In this document: one piece after another, positions 16,535 to 24,207 of the stretch
Layout of the letters: each line of letters starts with the position of its first letter
Position numbering within the stretch: the stretch's first letter is position 1
Origin: a virus
Virus record (IMG/VR): IMGVR_UViG_3300020578_000200
Location: 1-38,386 of that record
Reading direction: 5' to 3' (one strand)
Length of the DNA stretch: 38,386 nt
Position numbers and translations under genes: made by a program
Notes under the pieces: generated by a model
The model's database searches: none
The model's input: only the letters and a program-made list of their open reading frames with translations
Told to the model about the DNA's origin: nothing

Positions 16535-16567
16535 AGGGCCATGTTAGAAAAAGCATGGCCCTTTTTT
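16535..16567 (+). terminator. Rho-independent terminator
   Basis: GGGCCATG (16536-16543) and CATGGCCC (16554-16561) form a perfect 8-bp stem, extendable by an A-T pair, with loop TTAGAAAAAG and six Ts (16562-16567). It ends the replication operon. The T tract runs directly into CGGAGG, the RBS of the next gene, so read-through or a downstream promoter must supply the methyltransferase gene. Confidence 0.9.
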
Positions 16568-16578
16568 CGGAGGTAATT

Positions 16579-17259
16579 ATGGAAGAAACTACACTGCACC
16601 CATCTGGATTATATATCCGAAAAGATTCGTATGATTCAGAAATCATAAAAGAAATTTATCGCAGTTATGGCTGGATGGATATGAAAGGTAAAGTTGTGTT
16701 TGACGTAGGCGCAAACTTTGGAGCCTTTAGTTTCTATGCTCTTAAAAATGGTGCGAAATATGTTTATGCTTTTGAGCCCGAGCAAGAAAATTTTGAACTG
16801 CTGCGTAAAAACTTAGGTCGGTTTGAAAAAAACCTTTTAGATAATTCATCTCGTATTAAACTCGTTAATGCTGCTTTGGTCAGTGGACAGGACGGTGAAA
16901 TTGATTTTTATCTTACAAAGGGTATCAATCACGGTAATTACTCGATTTATTCTTATCAAGGCAGGGATAAAGTTACTGTAAAATCAGTTAATTTTGCACG
17001 GGCGTTAGAAAAAACAAAACCAGAGTGCATTAAGTTTGATTGCGAAGGTGCCGAACATGATTTGTTACCATGCGCTTTACCCGATACAGTGGAACAAGTA
17101 GCCATGGAACTTCATTATAACAGTCCGGCGCATACTGTTCCAAACTGGTTCGATAACTCTGTAAATATAATCAAGATGTTTGCTGATTGGGAAACAGTAA
17201 AGGAACCAAAAAGAAATCCAAAACTTTGGCATACATTAGGGGGATGGAGAAAAAAATGA
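16579..17259 (+). CDS. FkbM-family SAM-dependent methyltransferase
   Basis: A 226-residue class I methyltransferase. ATG 16579 is chosen for CGGAGG at 16568-16573; the upstream in-frame ATG lies inside the terminator. Motif I is VVFDVGANFGAFSFYAL (about 44-60), followed by the acidic YAFEPEQENFELL, and IKFDCEGAEHDLL (about 153-165) is the FkbM signature. FkbM enzymes usually O-methylate sugars or related small molecules. Here it precedes an HMUDK_hel protein and a glycosyltransferase, so it could methylate a sugar attached to DNA or to the cell surface. That link is inference. It begins the modification block after a terminator. Confidence 0.92.
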   Translation: MEETTLHPSGLYIRKDSYDSEIIKEIYRSYGWMDMKGKVVFDVGANFGAFSFYALKNGAKYVYAFEPEQENFELLRKNLGRFEKNLLDNSSRIKLVNAALVSGQDGEIDFYLTKGINHGNYSIYSYQGRDKVTVKSVNFARALEKTKPECIKFDCEGAEHDLLPCALPDTVEQVAMELHYNSPAHTVPNWFDNSVNIIKMFADWETVKEPKRNPKLWHTLGGWRKK

Positions 17260-17314
17260 TTGCCAAACGTTTTTCGTAGTTTAATTTAAAAACGCCCACA
17301 GAAAGGAGGCAGTC

Positions 17315-17908
17315 ATGTATTACGTTATCGCACCGAATACCCAAGGCGAAAAACCATACGGTTTTTATAAATTTTCTAACTTAAAACAAGCCAAGGGTTC
17401 AAACGTTGTTGACGAGTATGCTATGGTATTCAGTACACCTGAACAACTTGCTGAAAACTTTAGTATAGAAGAAATTAATGGTGTTATTTCTGTTGTGAGT
17501 AGCAAACAGATTTCCGTAGGCAAGAATATAAAATTTTCTGCAAAACAGTTGTTTGAAATTACAGCGGAAAAAGCAGTGAGTGTCAAACCTGTTGAACAAG
17601 TTGTACAGGAGGATGTAATGGAAGAAAAAGAAATTGTTCAGCCCGTTAAAAAAGCTAAAAACAAAACCCCGAAAGTAAAAACAGTATCCAAACCAAAAAC
17701 GTTTATCAGCGGGGAGTTAAAGGTACTTAAACCTTTTACGGGTAGTCCTAACAGTATTCGCGGTAAAAATTTAACAATCATTTTAAACAGCGCAACGGCG
17801 GATGCCGCTATTTCAAAAATGGTTGATTCAGCAGTAACTGAAAAAGTTGCACGTAATTTTATCCGTTGGGCCGCAGCTGAAGGCTACATTCAAGTGATAA
17901 ATAAGTAA
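17315..17908 (+). CDS. Hypothetical protein with a Lys-rich linker
   Basis: A 197-residue protein with RBS AGAAAGGAGG before ATG 17315. Residues 1-90 are a small mixed domain (MYYVIAPNTQGEKPYGFYKF). Residues about 105-130 form a Lys/Pro/Val-rich linker (KKAKNKTPKVKTVSKPKT). The C-terminal 65 residues look helical (AISKMVDSAVTEKVARNFIR) and could be a small DNA-binding domain. It is separated from the HMUDK_hel gene by one base, implying coupled expression. No family is recognised. Confidence 0.8.
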   Translation: MYYVIAPNTQGEKPYGFYKFSNLKQAKGSNVVDEYAMVFSTPEQLAENFSIEEINGVISVVSSKQISVGKNIKFSAKQLFEITAEKAVSVKPVEQVVQEDVMEEKEIVQPVKKAKNKTPKVKTVSKPKTFISGELKVLKPFTGSPNSIRGKNLTIILNSATADAAISKMVDSAVTEKVARNFIRWAAAEGYIQVINK

Positions 17909-17909
17909 C

Positions 17910-18767
17910 ATGGAATCTTTGCTTGGTAGTTTCTTTTACTGGATAAATGAGCGCCACGCTATTTATCTGTCCAAGGCGGCGGGTAATCCAAAGCCTTGGA
18001 CAAACGATACGATATTTCAACAATATAAGTTCACGAATCCCTTTCGTGAGTTAGATAAAACAACCGCATGGATGCGTAATAATTTAACTAATCCTAATAG
18101 GGATGCCCCCATAGCTGAAACCCTGTTTAATTGTTGCGTATTTCGTATGTTTGGCACCATAGAAATGGGCGAGGCTTTGGGTTGGATAAAGCAGTGGGAT
18201 CCTGAGCACGTAAAAAATCTAGCCCGTGGGCGGTTGAGCATGGGCCTAAAAGTGTTCACGGGGGCATACATAATCACCAACCAAGGGTTGAAAAATCCAA
18301 AGGAGGAGGTAGTATGCGATATGTTCCTTACACCTGTTTGGAAGGCCCGTGATCAGTTGGCTGAAATTATCAAACAAACCAATAGCCTAGAAACCCTGCA
18401 TAAGGAACTTGGTAAGTTTGCGGGGTGGGGAGGTGGCGGTTTTATGGCCTACGAAGTGGTAACCGATCTTAACCACACTAGCGCGATGCCAAGTCCTATT
18501 GGTCGTTATACATGGGCCAATGCAGGTCCCGGAGCAAAGCGCGGTCTTAACCGTTTGCATGGCAGGCTATTGGATAAGGCCAATGGTGTGGATTGGAATA
18601 GTGAAATGAGGCAGTTATTAGATATTGCCCCAAAGTACTGCGATAAAGAAGTACTCGAGCAAGGCGTTGATATGCGTACCATAGAACACAGTTTGTGTGA
18701 GTGGGATAAATACCAACGGGTGCTACTCGGCCAAGGCAAACCACGAAGCCTATACAAAGGAATTTAA
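17910..18767 (+). CDS. HMUDK_hel / alpha-glutamyl-putrescinyl-thymine pyrophosphorylase-like protein
   Basis: A 285-residue protein with the hallmarks of the helical HMUDK_hel family (alpha-glutamyl/putrescinyl thymine pyrophosphorylase, aGPT-Pplase): FFYWINERHAIYL (8-20), PWTND (29-33), FTNPFRELD (41-49), GGFMAYEVVTDL (176-187) and TWANAGPGAKRGL (201-213). The domain is related to helix-hairpin-helix DNA glycosylases. In phages ViI and M6 it is the C-terminal part of 5-hydroxymethyl-dU DNA kinases; related stand-alone proteins act on activated hydroxymethyluracil in DNA. Here no P-loop kinase domain is fused. Immediate neighbours are a glycosyltransferase and a thymidylate-synthase homologue, fitting a thymine hypermodification pathway. 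The exact reaction is unknown. The start lies two bases after the previous stop. Confidence 0.85.
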   Translation: MESLLGSFFYWINERHAIYLSKAAGNPKPWTNDTIFQQYKFTNPFRELDKTTAWMRNNLTNPNRDAPIAETLFNCCVFRMFGTIEMGEALGWIKQWDPEHVKNLARGRLSMGLKVFTGAYIITNQGLKNPKEEVVCDMFLTPVWKARDQLAEIIKQTNSLETLHKELGKFAGWGGGGFMAYEVVTDLNHTSAMPSPIGRYTWANAGPGAKRGLNRLHGRLLDKANGVDWNSEMRQLLDIAPKYCDKEVLEQGVDMRTIEHSLCEWDKYQRVLLGQGKPRSLYKGI

Positions 18768-18794
18768 AAGGTTGTAGGATGTAGGAGCACTTAA

Positions 18795-19757
18795 GTGAAC
18801 GTTGATTTATTTTATCTTAGCCCAAACCCCTATGGTGGATGGGTTACGTTTACTGCGCATCTAGTTGATGCACTAAAAGCGGTTGGTATCAAGCCAACAA
18901 TGTACAAAATAAGGCCGCGCAGTGAAAAGAAACCACGGCCTTTTGGTTACGATCTGCACTACACAAACATAAGTTTACAAGATGCTTTGCGTAGCCCCAA
19001 CAAGAAGTTGATTGTAGCCGCCGCTAAAAACCATGCAGATGATACTGCCGCGCTCTATGATGCAGGTGCTGCATTAGTAGTGCATGACCCTACTGAAATC
19101 AGAAACCTACCGCCCTTAAATGGTAGAACAGTTGTGATAAGGCAAATCGGGTTAACGTATCTGCCTACGGCTACATTTATTCGTCACCCTTATCAACGTA
19201 GGCCCGATTATGAAGTGTTTAACCGTACAACACGGGCCGTCAGTACTTCGCGTATTGATTTTGATAAACATACTGCATTGATACTAGATGCAAACAGGTT
19301 AGTACCCGATGAAGCTAAGTGTAAGATATACGGTTTTGAGAACCGCATCTACACACGGTTTAAGATTGTGCCCCATTACCCCGAATGGGAACAAAGTAAA
19401 GCGGCGTACCCTCGTAATAAAGAAGCTGCCTTCAAGTTGCTATGCTCAGCACAATTGGCAGTGGATATGAGCCTAATCAAGGGCGATGGTGGTGGTACGC
19501 AATACACAACACTAGAAGCATGGGATGCAGGCGCAGTGCCCGTTATTCAACGTGATTGGTTACGCACAGGCGACGACATGGTTGAAAATCAAAACTGTTT
19601 TGCCGTAGGTGATGCTACGCAGTTAGCTGCTCTGCTAAAGGATGTAGAAAATACTACGCACCTTGATACCTACCGTGACTATGGATATGAGCAGTTGTCG
19701 TTACACCATCCTAAAACTATTGGTGAACGCTATAAAGCATTGTTAGAAGCTATTTGA
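18795..19757 (+). CDS. GT-B-fold glycosyltransferase, candidate DNA-base glycosyltransferase
   Basis: A 320-residue protein starting at GTG 18795 after TAGGAG. The N-terminal Rossmann half begins with VDLFYLSPNPYGGWVTF, a GT-B-like nucleotide-sugar or acceptor loop. The C-terminal half has DMSLIKGDGGGTQYTTLEAW (224-243), the donor-binding region with the conserved Glu of GT4/GT1-type enzymes, followed by DAGAVPVIQRDWL. No membrane segment is present, so it should act in the cytoplasm. Its place between the HMUDK_hel and thymidylate-synthase homologues suggests it transfers a sugar to a modified pyrimidine in phage DNA. A role in cell-surface sugars is the alternative. Confidence 0.85.
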   Translation: MNVDLFYLSPNPYGGWVTFTAHLVDALKAVGIKPTMYKIRPRSEKKPRPFGYDLHYTNISLQDALRSPNKKLIVAAAKNHADDTAALYDAGAALVVHDPTEIRNLPPLNGRTVVIRQIGLTYLPTATFIRHPYQRRPDYEVFNRTTRAVSTSRIDFDKHTALILDANRLVPDEAKCKIYGFENRIYTRFKIVPHYPEWEQSKAAYPRNKEAAFKLLCSAQLAVDMSLIKGDGGGTQYTTLEAWDAGAVPVIQRDWLRTGDDMVENQNCFAVGDATQLAALLKDVENTTHLDTYRDYGYEQLSLHHPKTIGERYKALLEAI

Positions 19758-19783
19758 TAGGCGCAAGGTACCATGTATATAAT
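19754..19783 (+). promoter_or_regulatory. Sigma70 promoter for the thymidylate-synthase homologue
   Basis: TTGATA (19754-19759), 18-base spacer, perfect TATAAT (19778-19783). The -35 overlaps the stop codon of the glycosyltransferase gene. It predicts an untranslated leader of about 73 bases before ATG 19863, and a separate transcript for the nucleotide-metabolism and polymerase genes. Confidence 0.65.
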
Positions 19784-19862
19784 AAACGTTAGAAATATCT
19801 CTTAGTGCGCCAAAAGCAATAAAAACAAGTCTCTGACACCATACTGACAATAAGGGGTACAT

Positions 19863-20843
19863 ATGTATACCGTAGTAGCAAGAAACGTTTCCGAGGCATT
19901 ATTTTTGGGCAAGCAGTTGATTGAAACCAAAGGAGTAGAAATAGAAAGCCGTGCAGGAAAAACATTAGAACTCCCCCGCCCGTGTGGAACAACTTACACT
20001 CACCCCCGCGAGCGCGTACTGTTTTATCCACAACGCGATGCCAACCCGTTTTTCCATTGCTTAGAAAGTTTTTGGATGTTGGCAGGTCGTAATGATGTCA
20101 AATGGCTTGTGCAGTTCAACAAACGGATGGCTGAATACAGTAGTGATGGTGCTACGTTTTGGGGTGCATATGGACATAGATGGCGTAGGTGGTTTGACGA
20201 AGATCAACTCGACACAGTTGTGTATCGGTTAAAAAATTTTCCAAACGACCGCAGAACAGTGTTAGGTATTTGGGATGTGCTTTCTGACCTCACAAAAGTA
20301 AACGAGCAGAAAGATGTTCCGTGTAATACACACGTCTATTTTAAGGTGCGTGATAATAAACTCAATATGACAGTTTGTTGTCGCAGTAACGATATGATCT
20401 GGGGTGCGTATGGTGCAAACGCGGTTCACTTCAGTTTTTTACAGGAATATCTCGCCGCAAAAGTTGGTGTTGAAGTAGGTATGTATACTCAGGTGAGTGA
20501 TAGTTTCCATGCGTATGTAGAAGTATTAGAAAAACTTGGTTCTTTTCAACCTGATTACGACCCGTATCTTACATTGGGCAGTGATGGAAAACATTTTATC
20601 CCAAAACGTTTAGTAGATGACCCAACAACTTTTGACTATGAACTACGAATTTTCATGGAAGACGAAGAAGTAAACTATCCTTATAAAAACACTTACTTCA
20701 ATGAAGTGTTGGAACCTATGCGTAAAGGACATTTTTGGTGGCGCATGGGCGATAAGTTAAGAGCGTTAAAAATTGTTGAAACAATTACCGCCGATGATTG
20801 GCGTAAAGCCTGTGTGGAATGGATGGAACGGAGATTAAAATGA
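19863..20843 (+). CDS. Thymidylate synthase homologue, probable dUMP hydroxymethylase
   Basis: A 326-residue member of the thymidylate synthase fold. The nucleophile sits in VPCN (Cys154), the phosphate-binding Arg in CCRSNDMIWG (Arg174), and GAYGANAVHFS carries Asn186, matching the pyrimidine-discriminating Asn used for dUMP rather than the Asp of dCMP hydroxymethylases. The NDMIWGAYGAN loop differs from the GLPFN of canonical ThyA and resembles phage hydroxymethylase-type enzymes. It would use methylene-tetrahydrofolate to make 5-hydroxymethyl-dUMP or dTMP. The HMUDK_hel neighbour favours the former. It has its own promoter and shares a 4-base ATGA overlap with the next gene. Plain thymidylate synthase cannot be excluded. 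Confidence 0.88.
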   Translation: MYTVVARNVSEALFLGKQLIETKGVEIESRAGKTLELPRPCGTTYTHPRERVLFYPQRDANPFFHCLESFWMLAGRNDVKWLVQFNKRMAEYSSDGATFWGAYGHRWRRWFDEDQLDTVVYRLKNFPNDRRTVLGIWDVLSDLTKVNEQKDVPCNTHVYFKVRDNKLNMTVCCRSNDMIWGAYGANAVHFSFLQEYLAAKVGVEVGMYTQVSDSFHAYVEVLEKLGSFQPDYDPYLTLGSDGKHFIPKRLVDDPTTFDYELRIFMEDEEVNYPYKNTYFNEVLEPMRKGHFWWRMGDKLRALKIVETITADDWRKACVEWMERRLK

Positions 20844-21157
20844 CCGATTACGATGTTGTAAAATCTCTCGCCAGTGAAGACCATACCTGTTTGATTCAAG
20901 CAGGTAAAAGTTACGGCGATAGTTGGAAAAAACGCGGAGGTGTAGGCGCGTTTATGATGTTAGCTCGTAAATGGGACCGCATAGAAAACCAAACTCAAAA
21001 ATGTAAATGGGATATTTTTGAAGCTATCCGCAAAGACCCTAGTTCAACAGGTATACTTGATGATATTAAAGACCTACGACGTTATCTGCTGCTTGTTGAA
21101 TCGGAGATGACAACTGATGAGCAGCAATCTAAACTCTTTAATAGTAGCCGTTTGTGA
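20840..21157 (+). CDS. DUF1599 (nucleotide-modification-associated domain 1)-like protein
   Basis: A 105-residue protein. ATG 20840 overlaps the preceding TGA and is preceded by GGAACGGAGA. The core YGDSWKKRGGVGAFMMLARK, then WDRIEN and GILDDIKDLRRYLLLVESEM, fits the all-helical DUF1599/Nmad1 pattern known from T7-like and modified-base phages and associated computationally with nucleotide modification. The molecular activity is not known. Being coupled to the thymidylate-synthase homologue supports a role in handling the modified nucleotide pool. The family call is by eye and could be wrong at the subfamily level. Confidence 0.75.
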   Translation: MTDYDVVKSLASEDHTCLIQAGKSYGDSWKKRGGVGAFMMLARKWDRIENQTQKCKWDIFEAIRKDPSSTGILDDIKDLRRYLLLVESEMTTDEQQSKLFNSSRL

Positions 21158-21338
21158 ATGTGGTAAAAACCAACGAACACTGACATTCAGGCAGTTGAAA
21201 AACAAATGGCCTTTTTGTGAGTGTAAACAAAGTATGAAAGTTCTATCAGATGCAACTTCCTCTTTTCGTGCCGGAAACAGAATGGGTAATGCCCGAACAG
21301 TACCCAAACCTGAAAGGAGCAAAAGAAATATCGATTGA
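21117..21338 (+). CDS. Small putative zinc-ribbon protein, overlapping genes on both sides
   Basis: A 73-residue frame that overlaps the DUF1599-like gene by 41 bases and the polymerase gene by 89 bases. It encodes CECGKNQRTLTFRQLKNK followed by CEC, a CxC...CxC arrangement able to bind zinc, and a basic C-terminus. There is no clear RBS beyond GATGAGCAGC, so coupling to the upstream gene would be needed. The cysteine pairs and lack of an otherwise coding frame at 21158-21249 support it. The polymerase could instead start upstream only through this frame, which it does not. Confidence 0.5.
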   Translation: MSSNLNSLIVAVCECGKNQRTLTFRQLKNKWPFCECKQSMKVLSDATSSFRAGNRMGNARTVPKPERSKRNID

Positions 21339-23169
21339 CTTAGAAACTTATGACCCTAATTTGATAACCCTTGGTAGTGGGTGGCCTCGTAAAGATGGGC
21401 ATATTATCGGTGTTGCCGTAGCAGTGAGTGGGAGCAGTTGGTATTTCCCTATAAGGCATTTGAACGGTCGTAACTTAGATGCAAAGCAAACTTTCAATTG
21501 GTTGCGTAATGTTTGTAACGACCCTGTTTGTACATATGTTTTTCATAACGCCGCTTACGACGTTGGTTGGCTAAAAACAGAAAACGTACATATCGCGGGG
21601 CGTGTTGCCGATACAATGATCGTTGCGCCTTTGTTAGATGAAAACAGATTTAGCTATGCGTTGAATGCGTTGGGTAAGGATTACTTAAACGAACGTAAAG
21701 ATGAACGTATGCTACAAGAGGGTGCCCGTAGTTTCGGTGTCAATGCTAAGAGCGAGATGTATAAGCTACCCGCCGCTCTAGTTGGCGCATATGCAGAACA
21801 AGATGCCGCGCTTACTCTTAAACTATGGGAATATTTTAAAGGTTTAATCATCCGTGAAGAAATCGGTTCGATTGTAGACCTTGAACTTAACGTACAACGT
21901 GTTACAATCGCCATGCGTGAGCGCGGTGTACGTGTAGATGTTGAAGCTGCTGAACGTATTAAGTTAGACCTCGAAAAGCGCGAAAAGGCTTTGTTAGAAG
22001 GTATTAAAAAAGATTACGGCGTTGCAGTAGATATTTGGGCGGCACAATCAGTTGCTAAAGCGTTTGATATAGCTGGAATCTCTTATGGTAAAACTGAAAA
22101 AACAGGTGCTCCGAGTTTTGGCAAAACGTTTTTGAAAAACCATTCGCATCCGTTGCCGAAAACCGTTGTGCAGGCACGTGAGTTAAATAAAGCCCGAACA
22201 ACGTTTATTGATACAATTTTAAAACACGAAACAAAAGGACGTATACATGCAGAAATTCATCCTTTACGTTCAGACGAAGGTGGCACAGTTACAGGAAGAT
22301 TTAGTTACAGTGACCCTAATCTTCAGCAGATTCCTGCGCGAAATGCGGAAATTGGACCATTAATCCGTAGTTTGTTTTTGCCCGAGCAAGGCGATATGTG
22401 GGGCGCGTTTGACTATAGCAGTCAAGAACCACGCCTCGTTGTGCATTATGCAAGTTTATTAGATTTTGACGGTGCGCGTGACTTCGTAGCCGAATACGCA
22501 AAAGACGCACGCACCGATTTTCATCAACTTGCGGCAGATATTGTTGGTGTTCCACGTAAGCAGGCTAAAGACATTAACTTAGGTTTGTTTTATGGTATGG
22601 GAAAAAATAAACTCGCTGCTTCGTTAGGTTTAGACACAGAAGAAGCTGAACAGCTTTTTGCAAAGTATCATGCACGAGTGCCGTTTGTGAAACAGCTAAG
22701 TGACTACATCGTAAATCGCGCGACCAATAAGGGTGTAATAAGAACGTTGTTAGGACGTAGGTGCCGTTTTGATTTATGGGAACCCATGAAGTATGGTTTG
22801 TTTAAACCGATGCCATATAAAGAAGCCTACGCTGAACACGGTACAAGTATCCGCAGAGCATTTACGTATAAGGCTCTTAACAGGCTGATACAAGGCAGTG
22901 CCGCAGATCAAACTAAGCAAGCGATGGTTGCTTTGTACAATGAAGGCATATTGCCCATGATTCAAGTACACGACGAACTTGACGTTTCTGTGAGTAATGA
23001 GGCACAGGGTAAACGCATTCAAGAAATAATGGAAACATGTGTCACGTTAGAAGTGCCAAGTGTTGTAGATGCAGAGTTTGGCCCTAATTGGGGACAAGCA
23101 AAACAAACATTTAGTGATAAGCCATGGACACGTGGTTTAAAACATGCTCACAGTTTAATGAAAACTTAA
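21250..23169 (+). CDS. polA-like: Family A DNA polymerase with 3'-5' exonuclease
   Basis: A 639-residue replicative polymerase. The N-terminal DnaQ-like exonuclease has ISIDLETYDPN (Asp30, Glu32), YVFHNAAYDVGWL and YAEQDAALTL, so proofreading should be active. Polymerase motif A is FDYSSQEPRLVVHYA (near 386), motif B RKQAKDINLGLFYGMG (near 435) and motif C QVHDELDVSV (near 571). There is no 5'-3' exonuclease domain. ATG 21250 gives the usual short N-terminus (MQLPLFVPETEW) before the exonuclease. It probably copies the genome with modified dUTP analogues, given the flanking genes. It sits downstream of the thymidylate-synthase promoter. Confidence 0.97.
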   Translation: MQLPLFVPETEWVMPEQYPNLKGAKEISIDLETYDPNLITLGSGWPRKDGHIIGVAVAVSGSSWYFPIRHLNGRNLDAKQTFNWLRNVCNDPVCTYVFHNAAYDVGWLKTENVHIAGRVADTMIVAPLLDENRFSYALNALGKDYLNERKDERMLQEGARSFGVNAKSEMYKLPAALVGAYAEQDAALTLKLWEYFKGLIIREEIGSIVDLELNVQRVTIAMRERGVRVDVEAAERIKLDLEKREKALLEGIKKDYGVAVDIWAAQSVAKAFDIAGISYGKTEKTGAPSFGKTFLKNHSHPLPKTVVQARELNKARTTFIDTILKHETKGRIHAEIHPLRSDEGGTVTGRFSYSDPNLQQIPARNAEIGPLIRSLFLPEQGDMWGAFDYSSQEPRLVVHYASLLDFDGARDFVAEYAKDARTDFHQLAADIVGVPRKQAKDINLGLFYGMGKNKLAASLGLDTEEAEQLFAKYHARVPFVKQLSDYIVNRATNKGVIRTLLGRRCRFDLWEPMKYGLFKPMPYKEAYAEHGTSIRRAFTYKALNRLIQGSAADQTKQAMVALYNEGILPMIQVHDELDVSVSNEAQGKRIQEIMETCVTLEVPSVVDAEFGPNWGQAKQTFSDKPWTRGLKHAHSLMKT

Positions 23170-23171
23170 CC

Positions 23172-23672
23172 ATGGACCTTGGACGATTAAAACTTTTACG
23201 ACGCAGTGGCTATGTAAAGCGGTTTCACACGCTACCAACGATAGGGGAAGTGCAATCAGTGAGTGCACATAGTTGGAATGTGACTTTATTAATTAACGAG
23301 TTATTTCCAGATGCTCGAAAACAATTATTGCTCGCGGCTATGTACCATGATGTCGCTGAAATAATTATTGGTGATATGCCTGCAACAACTAAATGGAAAT
23401 ATCCTGATTTAGCCGAAACTTTAGCAAGGGCGGAAGAGCAAGTAGAGCGTGAGTTAAATATCCAATTCGCTCTGACTGAAAGAGAAAAGGTAATTCTCAA
23501 AATGTGCGATATGCTAGAGTTAGTTTTATACTCTGCAGAACAACTCAAATTAGGAAACGATTATTTCGATGAGGTGTTAAGTAATGGAATGAAATATTTA
23601 TTAGATAAGTATTCTAACTATGTAGAGTTTAGCGTGGTAAGTAATATCTTAAAACAAATGGTTAGCCGATAA
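23172..23672 (+). CDS. HD-domain 5'-deoxynucleotidase (YfbR-like)
   Basis: A 166-residue HD phosphohydrolase. ATG 23172 lies two bases after the polymerase stop; an upstream in-frame ATG at 23124 is inside polA. Metal ligands are His33 (SVSAHSWNV), His59-Asp60 (AAMYHDVAE) and an Asp near 117 (KMCDMLEL). SGYVKRFHT and GDMPATTKWKYPD are typical of YfbR-type 5'-deoxynucleotidases, which dephosphorylate deoxynucleoside monophosphates. In phages with replaced bases such enzymes drain the competing normal nucleotide, so it may remove dTMP or another dNMP. That substrate is inferred from context. Confidence 0.88.
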   Translation: MDLGRLKLLRRSGYVKRFHTLPTIGEVQSVSAHSWNVTLLINELFPDARKQLLLAAMYHDVAEIIIGDMPATTKWKYPDLAETLARAEEQVERELNIQFALTEREKVILKMCDMLELVLYSAEQLKLGNDYFDEVLSNGMKYLLDKYSNYVEFSVVSNILKQMVSR

Positions 23673-23739: not shown

Positions 23740-24207
23740 ATGAACATTTTCGTATTAGATTACAATCATACAACATGTGCTCAATATCACTGCGATAAGC
23801 ACATAGTCAAAATGCCGCTTGAAACAGCACAAATGCTCAGTAGCGTGTACGCACGTTACGACGAAGAAGGCCCCTACTTACCAGTGCATCAAAAACATCC
23901 GTGTACGTTATGGGCAGGTTCAACTATAGAAAACTACAAATGGCTATGGAACTTAGGCAATGCGTTGCTTAAGGAATATACCTATCGTTACGACCGTTTA
24001 CATAAATGTGGTGAAATACTTGCATTACTACGATGTCCCCCACGTAATTTGACTGCGCGTGGTTTTACTAAATTTGCTCAAGCAATGCCTGACAAATACA
24101 AACATCCTGATGTTGTCACTGCATATCGCAACTACTACCGTGGTGAAAAGCGCAATCTTGCAGTGTGGTCAAAACGAAATTTACCTATTTTTATGGAGGA
24201 AGTATAA
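23740..24207 (+). CDS. Conserved phage protein of unknown function (MNIFVLD-type)
   Basis: A 155-residue protein with RBS AGAAAGG in a hairpin loop. It opens with MNIFVLDYNHTTCAQYHCDK and continues HIVKMPLETAQMLSS, a pattern shared by a family common in T4-like and marine phages. Some databases label that family pyrimidine-dimer DNA glycosylase; I see no support for the activity in the sequence itself. Conserved His, Cys and Lys residues near the N-terminus could form an active site. The C-terminal part is Tyr/Arg-rich (VVTAYRNYYRGEKRNLAVWS). It starts the region of small genes with individual promoters. Confidence 0.88.
   Translation: MNIFVLDYNHTTCAQYHCDKHIVKMPLETAQMLSSVYARYDEEGPYLPVHQKHPCTLWAGSTIENYKWLWNLGNALLKEYTYRYDRLHKCGEILALLRCPPRNLTARGFTKFAQAMPDKYKHPDVVTAYRNYYRGEKRNLAVWSKRNLPIFMEEV

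Follow-up and report, generated by a model that had tools for sequence, protein, structure and literature searches.

Genes of the cassette and lineage of the phage

The window analyzed here, a virus record of 38,386 bp from IMG/VR (IMGVR_UViG_3300020578_000200), carries between positions 16579 and 23672 a candidate cassette for thymine hypermodification that includes a glycosyltransferase (GT). Its large terminase (TerL) is 62% identical to that of Pelagibacter phage HTVC027P, which assigns the window to the HTVC023P-type podoviruses. A primase-UvrD-PolA block is common to the window and phage DSL-LC04, in which UvrD abuts PolA without the cassette. The genes of the cassette, all on the plus strand, are as follows.

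16579..17259 (possible start at 16555), +, FkbM-type S-adenosylmethionine (SAM) methyltransferase (PF05050, E 4.8e-13)
17315..17908, +, conserved lysine-rich protein of 197 amino acids (aa) (no Pfam match above cut-off; 60 phmmer hits in the related loci)
17910..18767, +, HMUDK_hel (aGPT-PPlase1-type) protein, here hel, with a predicted helical fold like that of helix-hairpin-helix (HhH) DNA glycosylases (PF18723, E 6.2e-51)
18795..19757, GTG start, +, GT-B glycosyltransferase, here the W_GT family (AlphaFold model, pLDDT 91.4)
19863..20843, +, thymidylate synthase (TS) homologue, candidate dUMP hydroxymethylase (PF00303, E 6.9e-21; phrog_5131, E 6.6e-109)
20819..21157, +, small conserved protein, homologue of Pam3_54 (phmmer E 2.3e-28)
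21250..23169, +, family A DNA polymerase, PolA (PF00476, E 1.9e-60; PF01612, E 1.3e-9)
23124..23672, +, YfbR-like HD 5'-deoxynucleotidase, a nucleotide-pool enzyme (PF12917, E 1.3e-14)

The order hel-[GT]-TS-small open reading frame (ORF)-PolA-HD was seen again in dozens of contigs, and the cluster is thus not a chance arrangement. A first-pass annotation, made from the sequence without database searches, had delimited these genes correctly; Pfam profile searches confirmed its FkbM, PolA, and HD calls and placed the protein at 17910 inside the HMUDK_hel family. Its DUF1599-like label for the product of 20819-21157 had to be dropped, since neither this protein, nor Pam3_54, nor a longer relative has significant Pfam support for that domain. 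Pam3_54 itself carries the annotation "nucleotide modification".

A hydroxymethylase candidate and hel without the hydroxymethyluracil kinase

Over its full length, the TS homologue is 44 to 46% identical to proteins of phage M6 and of the Bordetella CN1, Stenotrophomonas Sonora, and Pseudanabaena Pam3 phages, and it scores 365 bits against phrog_5131, the family holding the M6-type proteins, versus 75 bits against PF00303. CMP hydroxymethylase is its best match among solved structures, with thymidylate synthases ranking behind. The TS homologue retains the catalytic PCN motif and the uracil-fitting asparagine but, exactly like the M6 protein, lacks the tryptophans found in this region of the active site in the aligned thymidylate synthase. 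The protein thus appears closest to the M6-type dUMP hydroxymethylases, with 5-hydroxymethyl-dUMP (5-hm-dUMP) as its predicted product, and the dUMP hydroxymethylase function suggested in the first-pass annotation stands as a predicted activity. An ordinary thymidylate synthase, supplying dTMP to a phage that makes no modified base, would belong to the same Pfam family; nonetheless, this explanation is very improbable given the far stronger phrog_5131 match, the lost tryptophans, and the constant linkage of the gene with hel and a GT.

The cassette resembles that of M6 in its dUMP hydroxymethylase, HMUDK_hel, HD nucleotidase, and PolA, which lie in similar order (records NC_007809 and NC_015296 represent M6/ViI/YuA-type thymidine hypermodification). 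In the M6/ViI route, a PF18748 kinase activates 5-hydroxymethyluracil (hmU) in DNA for the addition of amino acids or amines. The kinase gene adjoins hel in M6, CN1, Sonora, and Pam3 and lies elsewhere in the genome of Vi01; these phages have no TET/JBP-associated glycosyltransferase (TAGT, PF20691) over the cut-off. PF18748 was found in none of 48 related records, the window included, all of which contain PF18723, and the same search recovered the kinase in 4/4 M6-type records serving as positive control. A scan of 84 hel loci for Walker A motifs returned the UvrD helicase as the only recurrent carrier, besides one 137-aa ORF in two loci; in the window and five contigs of 58 to 76 kb, the motif was matched by UvrD and by a few further ORFs, none of which resembles a kinase. 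Unlike M6-type phages, therefore, the window has a GT instead of the kinase beside hel and looks like a different branch that shares its hydroxymethylase and hel with the M6/ViI/W-14 route. The kinship with that route asserted in the first-pass annotation has to be narrowed to these shared elements, the hmU-activating kinase not having been found in the 48 records.

The AlphaFold model of hel (AF2; pLDDT 92.4) had no Foldseek match at E ≤ 0.001. In VIA-align, HhH DNA glycosylases and DUF2419 queuosine salvage enzymes made up the whole of the first 33 rows, with Z falling from 10.0 to 5.7 before a drop to 3.3; as Z reaches at most 10 for a helical protein, this kinship is no more than suggestive. 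Sequence searches with hel and with W_GT against solved structures gave nothing meaningful. Residues R15, N43, R46, D49, R79, D186, the GPG at 206-208, E264, and K267 are common to all six reference phages (M6, Pam3, CN1, Sonora, phiW-14, and Vi01), and the same core is present in at least 95% of 45 hel proteins from GT-type loci. From the model and this conservation, hel is probably a base-flipping recognition or transferase component for 5-hmU DNA that tolerates different partners.

Amino acid transfer by hel has been proposed for the M6/ViI-type proteins. An undetected enzyme might accordingly activate hmU in the window phage as well, with hel transferring an amino acid or amine and the GT glycosylating that side chain. 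The core residues that hel shares with homologues from phages with known amine-modified thymine speak for such a route, as does phiW-14, which has hel without a detectable PF18748 protein. We nevertheless regard it as unlikely: the kinase is missing from the 48 records, UvrD is the only recurrent Walker A protein in the 84 loci, and the M6 genes for the PLP enzyme, GNAT, and M6-type radical SAM protein have no phmmer homologues in the window or the relatives' loci (the window record is possibly incomplete, and phmmer has little power to detect remote homologues).

The glycosyltransferase and its exchange slot

W_GT of the window has no match in Pfam or PHROG and does not match PF20691, although genes at the same place in other phages do. 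Its AlphaFold model has a GT-B fold, which bears out the first-pass call for 18795-19757. In VIA-align, tetrahydrobiopterin glucosyltransferase (Z 25.4) and T4 alpha-glucosyltransferase (AGT) with hydroxymethyluracil (HMU) DNA (Z 24.0) were nearly tied as matches, and R153, K158, and E241 are invariant in 32 relatives. As modeled, the protein has a glycosyltransferase fold with donor-binding residues. Among 52 W_GT loci picked solely on sequence, hel or TS is the neighbor in 29 and a Tet_JBP oxygenase in 20, and the remaining 3 have neither. That 49/52 loci sit at modification genes links the family to hydroxymethylpyrimidine in DNA, irrespective of whether this base derives from dUMP or from oxidized 5-methylcytosine, and W_GT is probably a DNA hydroxymethylpyrimidine glycosyltransferase. 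At the Tet_JBP loci, it would constitute a second TET-associated GT family beside TAGT. The relatives that adjoin Tet_JBP oxygenases (loci L116-L138) have a ParB-like gene and terminase genes nearby in the tested cases.

Scans with hel and with W_GT yielded 98 loci that contain hel and TS, forming 47 clusters at 95% hel identity. The gap between the two genes is filled by W_GT, a 430-aa GT4-like GT, TAGT with a radical SAM/SPASM protein, a divergent TAGT, a 353-aa protein, or combinations of these. After tblastn, a GT was present in 47/47 clusters, representing at least three families; as 41 of the 47 had been reached by the hel scan, this ubiquity is not a product of searching with a GT. One of the 47 rests on an assumption, because the 353-aa protein (loci L058/L060) matches no family and is called a GT by its position. 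TAGT, a DNA glycosyltransferase family, occupies the slot in 13 clusters with radical SAM and, as found by tblastn, in locus L014. Three relatives that seemed to have no GT (L014, L088, and L115) proved to be artefacts of ORF calling or position, tblastn finding a TAGT, a 430-aa-type GT elsewhere on the contig, and a W_GT.

The exchange is sharpest between loci L054 and L071, which share 95.9% identity over a 10.9-kb stretch ending with hel and encode hel proteins that are 98% identical. Identity stops exactly at the start codon after hel and returns just before TS; between these points lie unrelated GTs, the 430-aa GT in one genome and W_GT in the other. On the TS tree, the slot type changes 11 times, versus a least possible number of 5 and a shuffled mean of 23, so that slot type is inherited but repeatedly exchanged. 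In comparison with the near relative L007, the window shows 81 to 83% DNA identity for hel and GT versus 65 to 68% for primase, TS, and PolA; hel and GT thus appear to have traveled as a unit. Between these two genes, L007 has a radical SAM gene, and it lacks FkbM; the window has FkbM and no such radical SAM. These sequence comparisons show the GT gene to be an exchangeable module, flanked by hel and TS.

GTs that act on host surface sugars are common in phages, and those described here might likewise modify surface glycans or proteins and merely sit in the replication region. Annotated GTs elsewhere in the genomes of HTVC023P/027P would fit this explanation, as would the weak, generic Pfam GT matches of the 430-aa protein. 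Its fit with the loci is poor, given that the slot is fixed between hel and TS, that its occupants are exchanged with TAGT, and that W_GT stands next to TET/JBP in 20 loci. Action on surface structures is thus highly unlikely.

A match of FkbM to PF05050 at 50 bits (cut-off 22.7) leaves its family clear. L014 has an FkbM of the window's family at the same place, and a second FkbM group adjoins TS in other W_GT phages or in phages with the 353-aa protein. FkbM genes occur in 6/13 clusters that have neither radical SAM nor the 430-aa GT and in 0/35 others (Fisher p 1.4e-4, uncorrected for phage relatedness and covering two FkbM groups). The O-methylation proposed in the first-pass annotation gains partial support from this association; we suggest, weakly, that FkbM may O-methylate the transferred sugar or its donor in the window phage.

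Loci L109, L110, and L112 combine other phage backbones with hel, W_GT, one or two TAGT, and radical SAM, where several GTs might perhaps act in series to build disaccharides. Many loci have, ahead of TAGT, an ORF of about 100 aa with a zinc ribbon like that of NrdR (e.g., L013, 10882-11181). The 197-aa lysine-rich protein (17315-17908) lies directly upstream of hel in most relatives, and a Pyr_excise (PF03013)/phrog_624 protein adjoins the cassette in the window (23740-24207), as it does in many relatives. The first and last parts of the 75.6-kb contig of L007, represented by L148 and L151, share 31-mers, possibly through duplication or assembly redundancy.

Among 50,697 phage records, W_GT and the 430-aa GT have no homologues, the slot radical SAM has one weak match, and TAGT occurs in four records. 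No isolate with the full cassette was therefore found via the slot enzymes.

Proposed pathway and relation to known modifications

Taken together, the cluster is likely to be a kinase-independent thymine hypermodification cassette, by which hmU would be put into DNA and glycosylated there. As its homology and active site suggest, the TS homologue would make 5-hm-dUMP, which host or phage enzymes would turn into 5-hmdUTP for incorporation into DNA by PolA. Its fold, genomic context, and exchange with TAGT suggest that W_GT glycosylates hmU in DNA at its 5-hydroxymethyl group. In what is the weakest step, hel would most probably recognize duplex hmU or flip it, much as HhH glycosylases handle their own bases, and would work with whichever GT is present, which would replace the P-loop kinase that accompanies hel in M6-type phages. 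The sugars might further be tailored by FkbM or radical SAM enzymes. The combination of 5-hmU chemistry and glycosylation put forward in the first-pass annotation thus gains support from a GT family found almost only at DNA modification loci and from a slot that W_GT shares one-for-one with other GTs, TAGT included. Since the GT module is exchangeable, the sugar on this one base would be expected to differ among related phages. There is about an even chance of a broader arrangement, a kinase-free branch in which one HhH-like hmU recognition protein serves interchangeable nonhomologous GTs (W_GT, the GT4-like 430-aa GT, TAGT, and perhaps the 353-aa protein), radical SAM or FkbM tailoring enzymes are added, related phages end up with different DNA sugars on hmU, and W_GT is used on both TS-made hmU and TET-made 5-hydroxymethylcytosine (hmC).

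Several points weigh against this pathway. Both hmU and its sugar in these phages are predicted from genes alone, and most contigs are not proven complete. The W_GT model has many near-tied GT-B matches, among them GT4-type enzymes with small molecules or glycans as substrates, which are on a par with T4 AGT. The circular 40-kb genome MW202897 (L140) has TAGT, a uracil-type TS, and an HD gene in a row, with neither hel nor kinase; hel is thus not needed in every such system, and these three genes are a possible minimal set for hmU glycosylation. Finally, phiW-14 is known to carry amine-modified thymine and, like the window, lacks a detectable PF18748 protein, so that a nonhomologous activating enzyme is possible.

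Glycosylated cytosine is a familiar feature of phage DNA, and T4 AGT (GT63) resembles W_GT in its GT-B fold and its DNA hydroxymethylpyrimidine acceptor, having been crystallized with HMU DNA. The two enzymes differ in sequence, with 13% identity over the structural alignment, and in the predicted target base of W_GT, which is U rather than C. TAGT is likewise dedicated to hydroxymethylpyrimidine in DNA and shares with relatives of W_GT the proximity to Tet_JBP. Unlike TAGT, W_GT is a GT-B enzyme outside PF20691, and the hydroxymethyl base of the window is expected from a nucleotide-level hydroxymethylase rather than from TET. Sugars on thymine derivatives in DNA have precedents. Base J of kinetoplastids is one, although it is made by JBP oxygenases, unlike the base predicted here. 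Bacillus phage SP-15 provides another (PMC5977210), with the difference that its base is 5-dihydroxypentyluracil and that its two proposed synthases are of the ThyX type (Thy1, PF02511). The literature searched yielded no phage pathway that glycosylates hmU.

Wittmers et al. (2022; PMC9599517) described TS and aG/PT-PPlase1 near PolA in HTVC023P-type pelagiphages, in some cases joined by a 5'-deoxynucleotidase and a TAGT-type GT, and suggested a broader function for these "partner AMGs" (auxiliary metabolic genes). Those phages and the window share the lineage and the TS plus aG/PT-PPlase1 pairing; the isolates HTVC023P and HTVC027P differ from the window in having no PF18723 protein. The joint occurrence of TS, hel, and TAGT is thus already reported; in the passages of that article covered here, kinase absence, swap slot, W_GT family, and FkbM partners go unmentioned. 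Kinase loss, slot, and new GT family would therefore be the additions made here; none was found reported in the literature searched, whose coverage leaves out the main hypermodification papers. The first-pass description of the modification as new accordingly holds for the base, within that literature, and yields in part to this earlier report for the gene association.

Separation of hel from the kinase makes its true role testable, and the several GT families are possible tools for labeling hmU or hmC in DNA. The slot provides natural one-gene exchanges of DNA GTs between near-identical genomes, i.e., matched pairs for asking how type IV restriction and DNA glycosylase defences read sugars. 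Defences that read modified DNA are a plausible driver of these exchanges. Repeated GT exchange at one fixed spot would be expected of phages that evade bacterial defences by continually altering the coating of their DNA.

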